Origin: a virus
Direction: 5' to 3' (one strand)
DNA length: 20,317 nt
IMG/VR virus record: IMGVR_UViG_3300006737_000300
Coordinates: 1-20,317 of that record
Shown: piece by piece, positions 7,285 to 16,092 of the stretch
Position numbering within the stretch: the stretch's first letter is position 1
Layout of the letters: every line of letters begins with the position of its first letter
Program-made: the position numbers and the translations under genes
Notes under the pieces: generated by a model
Databases searched by the model: none
What the model was told of the DNA's origin: nothing
What the model saw: the letters and a program-made list of their open reading frames with translations, nothing else

Positions 7285-8498
7285 CGATGATTCGCTCCTT
7301 GATGGACGAGGAGTTCTACAAAGAACATAGGGTGAACAAATGTCCAGACGAGTTGTTCACTGATGAGGGCGTAAAGATTATACGCTGCATCGACAAGATG
7401 ATGGAGCAATACAAAAGGTCTGTAACACCAGAGGAAGTGTCGATGTATTTCTTGGCACACACTCCGGCATTGACTACAGCACAGGAGCATTCCTATCAGG
7501 AGTTGTTCCACAAGCTGGGTAGTGAGAGGGCTATGGGTAACGACGTAGCAGCAGATGTGGTTTCTCGCCTGTTCCAGCGTCATATAGGCAAGGTAATCGT
7601 CAACATGGGGGTAAACTACTCCAATGGTGATGAAGCCACTATGGAGCCTTTGAGAGAGTTGCTTGCCAAGTACAACGATGACTTTACCCCCAACCTTAAC
7701 CTTGAGTGGGAAGACATCAGCATTGATTCAATACTGGATAGTTATTCCTTGGAGAGTCGATGGAAGTTTAACTTGCCGACGTTGGCACAAGAGATTAGGG
7801 GTGTCAATGCTGGTCAGTTAATTGAGATTGGTGCTAGGCCGAACACAGGTAAGACATCTTTCCATGCCAGTATGATTGCTGGCCCTCGTGGGTTTGCACA
7901 TCAGGGTGCCAAGTGCATCATCCTGTGTAACGAGGAGAAGGCATTGCGTGTGGCAGAGAGATACCTCACTGCTGCAACACATATGACGATGGAAGAAATA
8001 TCCAGGGATAAGGAGAAAGCGCACAGTCTGTATGCTCCTGTTCGTAATAACATTGAGGTAAAGGATTCAACAGGCAAGAACATGGCGTGGGTAGAGAGTG
8101 TTGTCAAAAGCTATCAGCCTGACATACTTGTACTAGACATGGGTGATAAGTTTGCTACGATGCATGGATACAATAGACAAGATGAGGCATTGAAAGCAAA
8201 CGTCATTTATGCTAGAGAGATAGGCAAGCAGTATGGTTGTGCTATATTCTACATGTCACAGTTGTCTGCTGAAGCAGAGGGTAAGACAGTTCTGAACCAG
8301 AGTATGATGGAAGGGTCAAAGACAGGCAAGGCAGCAGAGGCAGACCTGATGATACTGATTGCAGCCAACCCACTTATCGAAGGGCAGAACAAGCAAGACC
8401 CACAGCGTCACCTGAATATTGTGAAGAACAAGTTGACAGGATGGCATGGGCGACTACATTGTAATTTGGATAATGTTTATGGGAGATATGAAGTATGA
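7275..8498 (+). CDS. Replicative DNA helicase (DnaB / T7 gp4 helicase type)
   Basis: This is a RecA-fold, ring-type helicase that should unwind the phage fork. Walker A is GARPNTGKT at residues 186-194; Walker B ends in Asp288 (ILVLDMGDK). A downstream YMSQLSAEAEG (Gln329 sensor) and GSKTGKAAEADLMI follow the DnaB-family order. The first about 135 residues resemble the helical N-terminal/linker region. ATG 7275 follows TAGGAGA. It overlaps the primase gene and ends in ATGA with the next gene. Length 407 is normal for a stand-alone phage helicase. Confidence 0.93.
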   Translation: MEMTMIRSLMDEEFYKEHRVNKCPDELFTDEGVKIIRCIDKMMEQYKRSVTPEEVSMYFLAHTPALTTAQEHSYQELFHKLGSERAMGNDVAADVVSRLFQRHIGKVIVNMGVNYSNGDEATMEPLRELLAKYNDDFTPNLNLEWEDISIDSILDSYSLESRWKFNLPTLAQEIRGVNAGQLIEIGARPNTGKTSFHASMIAGPRGFAHQGAKCIILCNEEKALRVAERYLTAATHMTMEEISRDKEKAHSLYAPVRNNIEVKDSTGKNMAWVESVVKSYQPDILVLDMGDKFATMHGYNRQDEALKANVIYAREIGKQYGCAIFYMSQLSAEAEGKTVLNQSMMEGSKTGKAAEADLMILIAANPLIEGQNKQDPQRHLNIVKNKLTGWHGRLHCNLDNVYGRYEV

Positions 8499-8854
8499 CA
8501 AGGATGTACACAAAAGAAACACTAGACGATTTAGATGAAGACATCGAATACTACAAAGAAAAATCTGTAGAGTTGCAGAGGTCTTGTTGGCATAAGGATA
8601 ATTACAGTAACTACGCAGACAGAAATGTTCTCCGGCTCAAGAAGCTAAGAAAACTACTAGAACTAAATCTTGAAGTCGAGACATTTGGACAACCAAACTT
8701 TGGCATGGTTTTAGTCAACAGAAAGTTTGTAGTTTGTCTACTTGACAACAACTGGAGGGTTGTAAATAAAAATGTGTGGTACAAACACAAGGATGACTTG
8801 AACCACTTTGTAGAAAAATACATCAAAGGAGACAATAATGAAGATAACACTTGA
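8495..8854 (+). CDS. Unknown protein inserted between helicase and polymerase (119 aa)
   Basis: ATGA overlap with the helicase and a 17-base overlap with polA place it firmly in the replication operon. The first 60 residues are strongly charged and helical, coiled-coil-like (LDEDIEYYKEKSVELQ; RLKKLRKLLELNLE). The second half is beta-rich (FGMVLVNRKFVVCLLDNNWRVV). No family recognised. By hand count, 8521-8820 is about 36% G+C, well below the flanking helicase and polA, which hints at a different origin or recent arrival. Confidence 0.78.
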   Translation: MTRMYTKETLDDLDEDIEYYKEKSVELQRSCWHKDNYSNYADRNVLRLKKLRKLLELNLEVETFGQPNFGMVLVNRKFVVCLLDNNWRVVNKNVWYKHKDDLNHFVEKYIKGDNNEDNT

Positions 8855-10880
8855 TGTAGAAAACACTGTGACAAAGCGTGATGGTAAGATGCACCTCGAC
8901 CCATTTGAGCCAGAGAATACGCTGGTAATGGTAGGTATGCTGACTGACCAAGGGCAGTGCTTGACGTTCCCATTTGACCACGCCGACCATCCTAGTCAGG
9001 ATGATTACTATGAACGTGTACAGATGCTTCTTGACGAGGCCACTGTGCTTATCATGCATAACGCAGCACACGACTTGTTGTGGCTGTGGGAGTCTGGCTT
9101 CAAGTATGATGGCCCTGTGTTTGATACGATGCTGGCAGAGTATGTCATGCAGCGTGGGCAGAAAGAACCACTGTCACTTGAGGCATGTGCAGAGCGTTAC
9201 GAGTTGGATACCAAGAAGCAGGATACCTTGAAAGAATATTTCAAGCAGGGCTTTAGCACTCGTGATATACCATACAATGAATTAACTGAGTATCTTGTGG
9301 CTGACCTTGAGGCTACGCAGCAACTTGCTGACAAGCTAATGTATCGTCTGAACACACCAAAAGATAGTGGGCTGATGGGTACAGTTGACCTGACGAATCA
9401 GGTGGCTGTGTGTCTGGCGCGTATCTATCAGCGTGGTCTGACTGTGGACATGGATGCGCTTGAGGATGTTAGGTCTGAGTTCCAACAGGAGAAGGATATC
9501 CTGACGTACAACCTGACAGCACAGGTGCGTGAGTTGATGGGGGATACGCCAGTTAATCTTAATAGTCCAGAGCAACTGTCATGGGTTGTTTACAGTCGTA
9601 AGCCAAAGAACAAAACTGTATGGGCCAATGCCATTCATCCTTACATGAAGGACAAAGACTTCAAGGATATCGTAAGGAGTGAGACAGAGGTTGTCTACAA
9701 GACACACGCTATCAAGTGCAAACCATGTAATGGCACAGGCTATATTCGTAAAACGAAAAAGAACGGCGACCCATATAGTAAACCAAACAAGTGCGTAGAC
9801 TGTGCAGCGTCAGGCTTTTTGTATCAGCGAACAAAGCAAGTAGCCGGTCTAAAGTTTACTGCACCTAATTCTAAGTGGGCTAGTGCCAATGGTTTCTCAA
9901 CAAGCAAGGGTAACTTGGGTGTACTCAAGGGCATAGCTACGCAGAACAATATGCAGGTAGCCAAGGATTTTCTCAATGATGTCAGTAGGTTAAGTGCATT
10001 GGATACATATTTATCATCCTTTGTTGATGGCATCAAGACGCACACAAAGTATGATGGTAAGCTACATGTTCGTTTGTTGCAGCATCGCACGGCCACAGGT
10101 CGCTTCAGTGGTGCTGACCCTAACATGCAGAACATGCCTCGTGGTGGTACATTCCCTGTCAAGCGAGTGTTTGTATCACGTTTTGATAATGGTAAAATTG
10201 TGGAAGCAGACTTCGCACAGCTTGAGTTTAGGGTAGCTGCTTTCCTGTCACAAGATGGAGTTGCAATTGAAGAAGTATCTACAGGATTTGATGTACATGC
10301 ATATACCAGTCAAGTTATTACTGATGCTGGTCAACCGACAAGTCGCCAAGAAGCAAAGGCGCATACGTTCGCGCCTCTTTATGGAGCAACGGGCTTTGGG
10401 AGAACGCCAGCGGAAGCAGAGTATTACACACACTTCACGGAGAAATATAAAGGCATCGCACATTGGCATTCCCGACTGGCTAAAGAGGCTTTAGAAAACA
10501 AGAAGGTTGTTACGCCTTCCGGCAGGGAGTTTTCTTTTCCTGATGTACAGAGACTGGAGAGTGGGCGTGTGTCACACTTCACGCAACTAAAAAACTATCC
10601 TGTGCAGTCATTGGCTACAGCAGATATTGTCCCTGTTGCTTTGCTACATATTGACACACTATTACACTACGCCAAGTCTTGCATTGTAAACAGTGTGCAT
10701 GATAGTATTGTGATTGATATGCATCCGATGGAAGAAAGGCTTGTGTTACAGGCTATTGACACAACCAATAAAGAATTACCTGGACTAATAGCTAGTAGGT
10801 GGGGCATCGACTTCAATGTGCCTCTTGTATTAGAAGCAAAGATTGGTCCGAATTGGCTTGACACGAAAGACGTAATGTGA
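8838..10880 (+). CDS. polA: Family A DNA polymerase with 3'-5' exonuclease and DnaJ-like zinc insertion
   Basis: This is the replicative polymerase. The exonuclease domain has Exo I D-x-E (Asp6, Glu8), Exo II N-x3-D (Asn75, Asp79) and Exo III Y-x3-D (Tyr152, Asp156). The polymerase domain has motif A with Asp458 (EADFAQLEFR), motif B RQEAKAHTFAPLYG (Arg503, Lys507, Phe511, Tyr515) and motif C with His621-Asp622 (NSVHDSI). Phe511 lines up with E. coli Pol I Phe762. Between the domains, residues 294-326 carry CKPCNGTG and CVDCAASG, a CxxCxGxG-like pair resembling the DnaJ cysteine-rich domain. This architecture is known from HMO-2011-type phages (recollection). It lacks a 5'-3' exonuclease domain. 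ATG 8838 follows AAAGGAG. The 680-residue length suits a T7-like phage polymerase. The end of the gene contains a promoter. Confidence 0.96.
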   Translation: MKITLDVENTVTKRDGKMHLDPFEPENTLVMVGMLTDQGQCLTFPFDHADHPSQDDYYERVQMLLDEATVLIMHNAAHDLLWLWESGFKYDGPVFDTMLAEYVMQRGQKEPLSLEACAERYELDTKKQDTLKEYFKQGFSTRDIPYNELTEYLVADLEATQQLADKLMYRLNTPKDSGLMGTVDLTNQVAVCLARIYQRGLTVDMDALEDVRSEFQQEKDILTYNLTAQVRELMGDTPVNLNSPEQLSWVVYSRKPKNKTVWANAIHPYMKDKDFKDIVRSETEVVYKTHAIKCKPCNGTGYIRKTKKNGDPYSKPNKCVDCAASGFLYQRTKQVAGLKFTAPNSKWASANGFSTSKGNLGVLKGIATQNNMQVAKDFLNDVSRLSALDTYLSSFVDGIKTHTKYDGKLHVRLLQHRTATGRFSGADPNMQNMPRGGTFPVKRVFVSRFDNGKIVEADFAQLEFRVAAFLSQDGVAIEEVSTGFDVHAYTSQVITDAGQPTSRQEAKAHTFAPLYGATGFGRTPAEAEYYTHFTEKYKGIAHWHSRLAKEALENKKVVTPSGREFSFPDVQRLESGRVSHFTQLKNYPVQSLATADIVPVALLHIDTLLHYAKSCIVNSVHDSIVIDMHPMEERLVLQAIDTTNKELPGLIASRWGIDFNVPLVLEAKIGPNWLDTKDVM

Positions 10881-10921: not shown

Positions 10922-11788
10922 ATGAGTGAACTATCAACTATTGATACCAACAATTACGCAGCTATGGCGCAGATGATGGGCATGGCTTATGACACAGGCG
11001 AGAAGAAGTCTAGTCTGGCACGGCTGCGTATTAACAAGAAGGCTATCATGGGGGATGCCGACGTAAATGGTAAAACCGTGAAGATGGAAGTTGTATCTGC
11101 TGGTGCGTTGGCTTTGCAGAACACCGACAATCAAGTCATCTATGCTGACAAGGTTGTACTGCGTCCCTTTGTTCAACGCTTTATGTATCAGCGATACGAT
11201 AGCAATGCCAACAACTATCAGAAAACTGTCATGGCAAATAACCTAGACATTGACCTGAAAGATACTGGTGGCACGTTCAACTGTGGAAAACCTGGGGGGT
11301 ACATTCAAGACTTTGATGCGTTGCCAGATGGCACAAAGGAACTTATTCGTCAGATACGTAGGGTTCGCGTTGTGTTTGGTACTGCATCTATGTCCGGTGT
11401 AACCAAGGAAGGTGACGCACAAGAGGTTACTGATGTGCCTTGCATTTGGGAAGTCGATAGCAAGGAAGGCTTCAAGAATGTGGGTCAGGCTTTTAATAAG
11501 CTGGGCCAGATGAATCGTCTTCCCCCACAACATAACATGACTGTTGAAACAGAAGGTCGTGAACTTCCGACTGGTTCTACATTCTATGTGCCTGTGGTTG
11601 ATATTGATATGAAGAATAATCTTGAGGTTACACCAGAGGACCAAGGTGTATTCAAAGAGTTTATGACATATATCGAAAACTTCAATACGTGGGTCTTGTC
11701 TGAATGGGATAAGGCTGCGCATGGTGAGCCGGAAGAAGATGAAAGCGTTGTGGAAGAGTTCATCACGGTAACTGTAGACGATGAATAG
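10922..11788 (+). CDS. Probable single-stranded DNA-binding protein
   Basis: Expected to coat ssDNA during replication and recombination. I base this on position (between polA and a recombination-type nuclease, where T7-like phages carry gp2.5-like genes), on the basic, beta-rich middle, and on an acidic C-terminal tail: roughly half of the last 20 residues are Asp or Glu (EPEEDESVVEEF...VDDE). This tail is typical of SSBs, which use it to recruit replication partners. There is no clear OB-fold signature in the sequence alone, so the family is not certain. It has its own promoter and a good AAAGGAG site. The last eight bases overlap the next gene. Confidence 0.7.
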   Translation: MSELSTIDTNNYAAMAQMMGMAYDTGEKKSSLARLRINKKAIMGDADVNGKTVKMEVVSAGALALQNTDNQVIYADKVVLRPFVQRFMYQRYDSNANNYQKTVMANNLDIDLKDTGGTFNCGKPGGYIQDFDALPDGTKELIRQIRRVRVVFGTASMSGVTKEGDAQEVTDVPCIWEVDSKEGFKNVGQAFNKLGQMNRLPPQHNMTVETEGRELPTGSTFYVPVVDIDMKNNLEVTPEDQGVFKEFMTYIENFNTWVLSEWDKAAHGEPEEDESVVEEFITVTVDDE

Positions 11789-14130: not shown

Positions 14131-16092
14131 ATGAACAATTATCTACCTACTGACTATCAAACATTTATTGCTACCTCGCGTTACGCAAGGTGGATTGAAG
14201 ACGAACAACGAAGAGAGACATGGGGTGAAACTGTGGCTAGGTACTTCGACTACATGGAGAACCACCTTACCAACAAATACAGCTACGCCATGTCCGATGA
14301 ATTACGCGCAGAACTTGAAGAGGCTGTGCTTAACCAAGACATCATGCCAAGCATGAGAGCATTGATGACTGCCGGTCCCGCGCTTGACCGTTGTCACGTC
14401 GGTGGTTACAATTGCTCTTACGTACCTGTGGATAGCCCTCGTGCATTTGACGAGACAATGTATATCCTCATGTGTGGCACTGGTGTAGGCTTCTCTGTAG
14501 AAAGACATAACATAGAGAAGCTGCCCATCGTCAACGAAGATATGCATGAGACAGATACTGTCATCAAGGTTGGCGATTCTAGGCCGGGCTGGGCCAAATC
14601 CCTGCGTGAATTAATCTCGCTCCTGTACGCAGGGCAAATCCCAAAGTGGGATACTAGCGAGGTGCGTCCTGCTGGTGCGCGTCTAAAGACGTTTGGTGGT
14701 CGTGCTAGTGGCCCAGCCCCACTTGAGAACCTTTTTAATTTCTGCATTAAGAAGTTCAAAGGTGCAGCAGGGCGTCGTCTGTATCCTATCGAATGCCATG
14801 ACATCATGTGTAAAATTGGTGAGGTTGTGGTTGTTGGTGGTGTACGTCGCTCTGCCCTCATCAGCCTGTCCAATCTTAATGATGACCAGATGGCCCACGC
14901 AAAATCAGGACAGTGGTGGGATGAGCCACAGAAGAACATCTATCGTGAGGGTCAACGTGCATTGGCTAACAACAGCGTAGCCTACAAAGAAAAACCACAG
15001 ATGGGTACGTTCATGCGTGAGTGGTTGTCACTGTACGAGTCAGGCTCTGGTGAGCGTGGTATCTTCAATCGTCAGTCTGCACAGAAACAAGCAGCAAAGA
15101 ATGGTCGCAGGGATACTGAACAAGACTTCGGTACAAATCCTTGTAGTGAGATTATTCTTCGCCCTTATCAATTCTGTAATCTGTCTGAGGTTGTTGTTCG
15201 TGCATCTGATACACAGCAGACGCTAACAGAGAAGGTGCGCTTGGCGACTATCTTGGGTACGTTCCAATCCACCCTGACTGACTTCAAATATCTGCGTAAG
15301 ATATGGAGGACAAACACAGAGGAAGAACGGTTGCTGGGTGTATCACTGACAGGTATCATGGACAATGCTATGACATCTGGCAAGTCAGCACATCTTGGCA
15401 TGAACATTGGTGCCACGCTGAATGCACTAAAAGAACAGGCTGTAGCAACTAACGCATCTATGGCTGAACAATTAGGAATCCCACAGTCGGTAGCCATCAC
15501 CTGTGTCAAACCATCTGGTACAGTGTCACAGCTTGTGGACAGCGCGTCTGGTATTCATGCTCGTCACAATCCTTACTACATTCGTACGGTACGTGCCGAC
15601 AACAAAGACCCAGTTACGCAGTTTATGATTTCGCAGGGAATACCAGCAGAGCCTGATGTTACAAAACCTGACAGCACAACTGTCTTCAGCTTTCCTATGA
15701 AAGCACCAACAGGTGCCGTATGCCGTAATGACATGACAGCTATTGAACAGCTTGAGTTGTGGCTGACGTATCAGCGACACTGGTGTGAGCATAAGCCCTC
15801 TGTCACTATCACTGTTAAAGAGCATGAGTGGATGGACGTAGGCTCTTGGGTGTACGAACACTTTGATGAGGTGTCTGGTATCAGCTTTATGCCGTTTAGT
15901 GATTACGTTTATCAGCAAGCTGTTTATCAAGACATCAACAAAGAAGAGTATGACGAAGCACTTTCACACATGCCAACATCAATTGATTGGGTAAAGCTAC
16001 AAGATTTTGAGAAAGAGGACCACACATCAGGTGGACGAGAGTTGGCGTGTAGTGCTGGTGTATGTGAAGTTGTTGACATTGAGGCGGCATGA
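14131..16092 (+). CDS. nrdJ: Adenosylcobalamin-dependent (class II) ribonucleotide reductase
   Basis: Converts ribonucleotides to deoxyribonucleotides for phage DNA. All five mechanistic cysteines are in place by comparison with the monomeric class II enzyme of Lactobacillus leichmannii. Cys95 (GGYNCSY) and Cys349 (YQFCNL) form the active-site pair, Cys338 in NPCSE carries the thiyl radical, with Asn336 and Glu340 beside it, and Cys640 and Cys645 form the C-terminal reducing pair (CSAGVC). Cys338 and Cys349 are 11 apart, as in that enzyme. Further signatures are LMCGTGVGFSVE and CVKPSGTVSQLVDSASGIHARHN. At 653 residues it is shorter than the 739-residue Lactobacillus enzyme, typical of phage forms. 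It needs B12 from the host but no oxygen or second subunit. It starts at ATG 14131 and ends in ATGA with the next gene. Confidence 0.95.
   Translation: MNNYLPTDYQTFIATSRYARWIEDEQRRETWGETVARYFDYMENHLTNKYSYAMSDELRAELEEAVLNQDIMPSMRALMTAGPALDRCHVGGYNCSYVPVDSPRAFDETMYILMCGTGVGFSVERHNIEKLPIVNEDMHETDTVIKVGDSRPGWAKSLRELISLLYAGQIPKWDTSEVRPAGARLKTFGGRASGPAPLENLFNFCIKKFKGAAGRRLYPIECHDIMCKIGEVVVVGGVRRSALISLSNLNDDQMAHAKSGQWWDEPQKNIYREGQRALANNSVAYKEKPQMGTFMREWLSLYESGSGERGIFNRQSAQKQAAKNGRRDTEQDFGTNPCSEIILRPYQFCNLSEVVVRASDTQQTLTEKVRLATILGTFQSTLTDFKYLRKIWRTNTEEERLLGVSLTGIMDNAMTSGKSAHLGMNIGATLNALKEQAVATNASMAEQLGIPQSVAITCVKPSGTVSQLVDSASGIHARHNPYYIRTVRADNKDPVTQFMISQGIPAEPDVTKPDSTTVFSFPMKAPTGAVCRNDMTAIEQLELWLTYQRHWCEHKPSVTITVKEHEWMDVGSWVYEHFDEVSGISFMPFSDYVYQQAVYQDINKEEYDEALSHMPTSIDWVKLQDFEKEDHTSGGRELACSAGVCEVVDIEAA

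Follow-up and report, generated by a model that had tools for sequence, protein, structure and literature searches.

The family A DNA polymerase encoded by a virus fragment of 20,317 bases (IMG/VR record IMGVR_UViG_3300006737_000300; this whole stretch is referred to as the window) carries a cysteine-rich insertion between its exonuclease and polymerase domains, which raises the question of where in the polymerase fold this module sits and what it does there. The architecture as such, with its probable zinc hairpin, is already known as a hallmark of the HMO-2011-type phages. Published descriptions present the group polymerase as atypical, in that part of a DnaJ domain, containing two CXXCXGXG motifs, forms the centre of the protein between the exonuclease and polymerase domains (PMC9038755, PMC6918029, PMC8528129). 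This partial domain serves as group criterion and was found in 2,433 sequences (PMC9038755), and the papers of 2019 and 2022 that use the marker themselves cite earlier HMO-2011 work (PMC6918029, PMC9038755). The GenBank record of HMO-2011 likewise already annotates PF00684 in the polymerase.

The open reading frame at 8838-10880 matches Pfam DNA_pol_A (PF00476, E = 2.8e-47) and, over residues 54-171, the 3'-5' exonuclease family (PF01612, E = 5.4e-10). The Exo I (D6/E8) and Exo III (Y152..D156) residues are present, as are motif A (D458..E463), motif B (R503-K507-F511) and motif C (H621-D622). Conservation was assessed in a set of 197 full-length or nearly full-length sequences, consisting of the window protein, IMG/VR relatives and isolates, with identities to the window protein down to 36%; the IMG/VR relatives were gathered using the window, HTVC033P and CRP-738 polymerases as queries. 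Hereof, 196-197 retain the exonuclease motif residues, and D458, R503, K507, F511 and D622 are invariant throughout (n = 197), which identifies the protein as a family A DNA polymerase, as proposed in a preliminary description of the locus made from the sequence. The same holds for its assignment of Phe511, invariant in motif B, as the equivalent of E. coli Phe762. An AlphaFold model of the entire polymerase aligns to Bst, Klenow, Taq and Pol theta with Z-scores of 30-32.

In a tblastn search of 50,697 phage records, the polymerase of Puniceispirillum phage HMO-2011 is 71.1% identical over 100% of the length, followed by those of the roseophages CRP-345, CRP-1, CRP-207, CRP-2, CRP-603, CRP-3, CRP-235, CRP-212 and CRP-738 and of pelagiphage HTVC033P (36-67% identity), while the next-best full-length matches outside the group are near 27% identity. 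The gene order integrase-primase-helicase-polymerase-hypothetical-nuclease-endonuclease I-RNR-MazG is that of HMO-2011 (GU557055), and polymerase, primase and helicase are all related to their HMO-2011 counterparts. Domain order, four Cys and gene neighbourhood are thus shared with HMO-2011, CRP-1/2/3 and HTVC033P, from which the window polymerase differs in sequence only. Hence, the reading frame encodes the replicative polymerase of an HMO-2011-type phage, and the earlier reading of the insertion as a marker of this group agrees both with this identity and with the literature (PMC9038755, PMC6918029). No structural genes were recognised in the fragment. The coordinates of the features discussed here are summarised in Table 1.

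Table 1. Features of the polymerase locus (positions refer to the window, residues to the encoded protein).
Feature	Position	Strand	Details and evidence
Family A DNA polymerase, HMO-2011 type	8838..10880	+	680 aa, ATG start; Pfam PF00476, PF01612; HMO-2011 identity
3'-5' exonuclease domain, residues 1-171	8838..9350	+	D6/E8, N75/D79, Y152/D156; Pfam PF01612 54-171
Thumb helix H1 motif NLNSPEQLSWVV, residues 241-252	9558..9593	+	phmmer vs Klenow; model helix 244-252; T7 motif at 334
Thumb-tip insertion, residues 256-352 (~95 residues)	9603..9893	+	AlphaFold, alignment
First Cys motif CKPCNGTG (C294, C297, G299, G301)	9717..9740	+	invariant in 197/197 relatives
Second Cys motif CVDCAASG (C319, C322, G326)	9792..9815	+	C319, C322, G326 invariant in 197/197
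Thumb helix H2 equivalent, residues 357-369; polymerase fold resumes	9906..9944	+	AlphaFold helix 357-369
Motif A (D458) to motif B (R503, K507, F511; Phe762 type)	10209..10376	+	invariant residues
Motif C VHD, residues 620-622	10695..10703	+	H621, D622 invariant
Adjacent downstream gene, 288 aa, acidic C-terminal tail	10922..11788	+	tails in 151 relatives

Three further genes of the window deserve mention. A 119-aa reading frame (8495-8854, +) with only a weak, below-cut-off MerR-like match (E = 0.0052) lies between helicase and polymerase, whereas the HMO-2011 helicase gene runs straight into the polymerase gene. Upstream of the integrase, a C5 cytosine methyltransferase is encoded at 1900-2931 (+; E = 2e-50), whose true start probably lies some 40 codons downstream of the listed one, since the methyltransferase domain begins at residue 39. 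The product of 14131-16092 (+) is an adenosylcobalamin-dependent (class II) ribonucleoside-triphosphate reductase, as annotated in HMO-2011, with a score slightly under the NCBIfam cut-off.

Within the polymerase, Cys294, Cys297, Cys319 and Cys322 account for four of the eight Cys residues and for the only two CxxC motifs. The quartet and Phe511 are found at the residues named in the preliminary description, and the motif positions confirm that the quartet lies after Exo III and ahead of motif A. The claim that the two motifs form a CxxCxGxG-type pair stands for CKPCNGTG, which matches exactly; CVDCAASG is CxxCxxxG by strict reading, with Ala324 replacing the middle Gly. At this position Gly occurs in 142 and Ala in 23 of the 197 sequences. 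The pair is not due to chance: among 200,000 shuffled versions of the polymerase, 46 contained one CxxCxGxG and none contained a pair within 60 residues. All four Cys, together with A291, G299, G301, G326 and G337, are conserved in the complete set of relatives, which had been fetched with search patterns that did not contain the Cys motifs. A CRP-738-like subgroup (L223:2272-2634, L212:2272-2637 and L196:2281-2652) possesses 12-13 extra, very Lys-rich residues between the Cys pairs, a composition consistent with nucleic-acid contact.

The structure prediction suggested by the preliminary description was carried out with AlphaFold2, using 40 sequences, and yields a confident fold of the insertion with the Cys motifs on a beta-hairpin. 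Mean pLDDT is 89.5 for the polymerase and 83-94 per 10-residue block within the insertion, which consists of short helices (259-265, 272-282) and the hairpin (287-293, 327-335), the Cys motifs lying between the hairpin strands. When the insertion is modelled alone, the same elements are obtained (mean pLDDT 82.6). The top structural matches of this isolated module are nearly all CxxCxGxG zinc modules, namely DnaJA2, UvrA, anti-TRAP, DnaJ and BSD2, although the matches are weak (Z 3.2-4.1); with Foldseek, BSD2 and DnaJA2 are assigned probabilities of 0.97-0.99 but E-values of 0.15-0.27. A sequence search of the PDB with the insertion gave nothing significant, the best match being an MCM-related protein (E = 0.31). 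The cysteine-rich domain of DnaJ/Hsp40 (DnaJ_CXXCXGXG, PF00684) matches residues 290-330 weakly (E = 0.0048; 17.6 bits compared to a cut-off of 32.7). It shares CxxCxGxG-type motifs and a weak fold resemblance with the insertion, yet contains four motifs forming two sites, whereas the HMO-2011-type insertion has two motifs, is not accompanied by a J domain and scores below the Pfam cut-off. With two CxxC motifs the insertion can form at most one metal site. Judged by the Cys pattern and the fold resemblance, Cys294, Cys297, Cys319 and Cys322 most likely constitute such a site, binding Zn(2+). Small zinc modules with CxxCxGxG motifs are also found in UvrA and in anti-TRAP, the latter with exactly two like the insertion; both proteins are otherwise unrelated to the polymerase and serve different functions.

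To locate the module in the thumb, we compared the polymerase with Klenow and T7 polymerase. NLNSPEQLSWVV is equivalent to Klenow NLSSTKQL and T7 FNPSS/H1. The phmmer alignment to Klenow pairs NLNSPEQLSWVVYSRK with NLSSTKQLQTILFEKQ and then breaks. Assuming that the Klenow chain starts at residue 324, the break corresponds to about residue 594 of the E. coli enzyme. In T7 polymerase, FNPSS begins at residue 334, helices H1 and H2 span residues 339-348 and 365-372, and the thioredoxin-binding domain crosslinks at 269-302 (PMC9198812). Hence the T7 domain precedes H1, whereas the HMO-2011-type insertion follows H1 and ends before the H2 equivalent, so that the two occupy neighbouring loops of the thumb tip but separate sites. 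The earlier placement of the insertion at the thioredoxin-binding site of T7 is therefore not tenable. Both are thumb insertions in phage family A polymerases, but that of T7 gp5 lacks the CxxCxGxG pair, and homology between them is ruled out by their position relative to H1. We regard a MAFFT overlay of the insertion on the T7 domain as an alignment artefact, because it leaves the H1 motif unaligned.

The nearest outgroup polymerases, those of MEP402, ICP2, QDWS535 and LKA1, have an H1-H2 loop that comprises at least some 50 residues and lacks the four Cys, from which it appears likely that the zinc hairpin was added within an already enlarged loop. The StenR_269 polymerase has a short loop at this place. 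Among the closest non-group polymerases are the Zobellviridae-type enzymes of ICP2 and MEP402 (~26% identity), which show the expanded loop at the equivalent place but not the four-Cys site. MEP401 and MEP402 were also described as lacking the HMO-2011 domain structure (PMC10580990). The polymerase of Methylophilales phage MEP402 (L089:292-2403) is encoded by two genes with a 77-aa reading frame in between, a split that has already been published (PMC10580990); the QDWS535 polymerase is likewise split, and that of ICP2 is interrupted by an HNH gene. Outgroup scans gave one locus with the StenR_269 polymerase and no locus with that of QDWS535.

With respect to its distribution, tblastn with three divergent insertion sequences gave good E-values for twelve HMO-2011-type records only (HMO-2011 being represented twice). 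No other annotated polymerase was found with these three queries, a search that does not reach very divergent versions. Among the weak extra matches, those inspected were an ATPase resembling UvrA on a fecal fragment, a DnaJ of bacterial type from an unverified record and, in Sinorhizobium phages, a small protein rich in Cys; the remaining weak matches coincide with tail genes or with sequence lacking annotation. When the polymerase alignment was used to search the collection, close group members alone were recovered. At BLAST sensitivity the insertion is thus restricted to the group among sequenced phages, and the domain order is not widespread outside it, in keeping with the preliminary description. 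In cellular genomes, HMO-2011-type polymerases occur on two MAG contigs only (L256:1-1962 and L257:4001-6040), binned as a Maricaulis and a Euryarchaeota MAG, respectively; both are probably misbinned phage contigs.

The insertion is also distinguished by its charge. At least 93% of the sequences have a basic residue at positions 259, 288, 305, 307, 318 and 339, and no position of the insertion is acidic at that level, compared to 16 basic and 22 acidic positions in the rest of the polymerase by the same criterion. Residues 284-345 carry a net charge of +8 on average, the whole window polymerase one of -9. Some of the conserved basic residues may serve folding. The protein encoded directly downstream has an acidic tail in 151 relatives, with a mean net charge of -8.4 in the last 24 residues, and matches no Pfam, PHROG or NCBIfam family. 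In some relatives the tail ends in Asp-Phe or Asp-Tyr, which resembles the tails of phage and bacterial SSBs. Our guess is that this protein is a candidate single-strand DNA-binding protein and a possible partner of the polymerase.

Taken together, we consider it about an even bet (probability roughly 0.5) that the insertion forms a thumb tip which, stabilised by zinc, binds primer-template DNA and perhaps also the downstream protein with its acidic tail, with no need for thioredoxin. Hereby, the metal site would rigidify a positively charged extension of the thumb tip, the basic tip would grip the newly made primer-template duplex and might dock the acidic tail of the downstream protein, and the polymerase would thus be held on DNA without a thioredoxin subunit. 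We favor this reading because, besides the invariant Cys and Gly pattern, the confidently modelled hairpin, the basic insertion and the acidic downstream tail, the H1-H2 stretch of T7 polymerase (346-355, 360-373) crosslinks to template DNA (PMC9198812), E. coli Pol I is less processive and less accurate when its thumb is truncated (Minnick 1996, as cited in PMC10061031), acidic C-terminal tails of the T7 helicase bind basic patches of the polymerase (PMC12593628), and a thioredoxin gene was absent from 10 related virus records. A more specific version is tentative and in our view somewhat improbable: here, a basic H1-H2 hairpin with a single zinc would form a thioredoxin-independent processivity device that grips DNA, docks the acidic tail of an adjacent, unrecognised phage SSB and evolved separately from the solution of T7 in the adjacent loop.

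Alternatively, as raised in the preliminary description, the insertion could be a docking site for a host processivity factor, thioredoxin or another protein, with a T7-like function at the neighbouring loop. Its location at the thumb tip and the T7 precedent point in this direction, and another A-family polymerase has been modelled as binding its own SSB via the thumb tip (PMC10061031). As the 10 related virus records yielded no thioredoxin gene, docking would require a host protein; for thioredoxin of the host itself this result is neutral. The insertion is, however, on a different loop from that of T7, and the module is common to phages of SAR116, Roseobacter and SAR11 hosts. The factor would thus have to be conserved in all of these, for which thioredoxin qualifies. 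On balance, we regard such docking as unlikely. We are equally doubtful that the zinc site is a mere structural staple of a pre-existing enlarged thumb loop that neither recruits a partner nor acts much on DNA directly. The long loops without the four Cys in MEP402, ICP2, QDWS535 and LKA1 speak for this possibility, whereas the invariance of basic residues alongside the Cys and the retention of the module in every member found speak against it.

A DnaJ-type chaperone role, in which the insertion would recruit DnaK or remodel the replisome, is very improbable: despite the resemblance to the DnaJ zinc module in sequence and fold, there are two CxxC motifs instead of four and no J domain, the part of DnaJ that engages DnaK, and UvrA and anti-TRAP carry a similar module for other jobs. 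The comparison would be with DnaJ in lambda replication, a role noted previously (PMC9038755). A redox switch, in which polymerase activity would be adjusted to the oxidation or disulphide state of the four Cys, is just as hard to credit, since the unvarying Cys spacing and Gly positions are in line with structural zinc, even though the module is Cys-rich and on the surface and DnaJ has reported oxidoreductase activity (PMC8262869).

A zinc-stabilised, basic thumb tip that retains the polymerase on DNA would be of relevance for an abundant marine group that is defined by this module and whose polymerases reportedly account for up to 19.7% of all family A polymerases in certain ocean viromes (PMC9038755). 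Its placement between H1 and H2 and away from the thioredoxin site of T7, together with its conserved basic positions and a neighbouring gene product with an acidic tail, turns a taxonomic marker into a testable question of polymerase retention.
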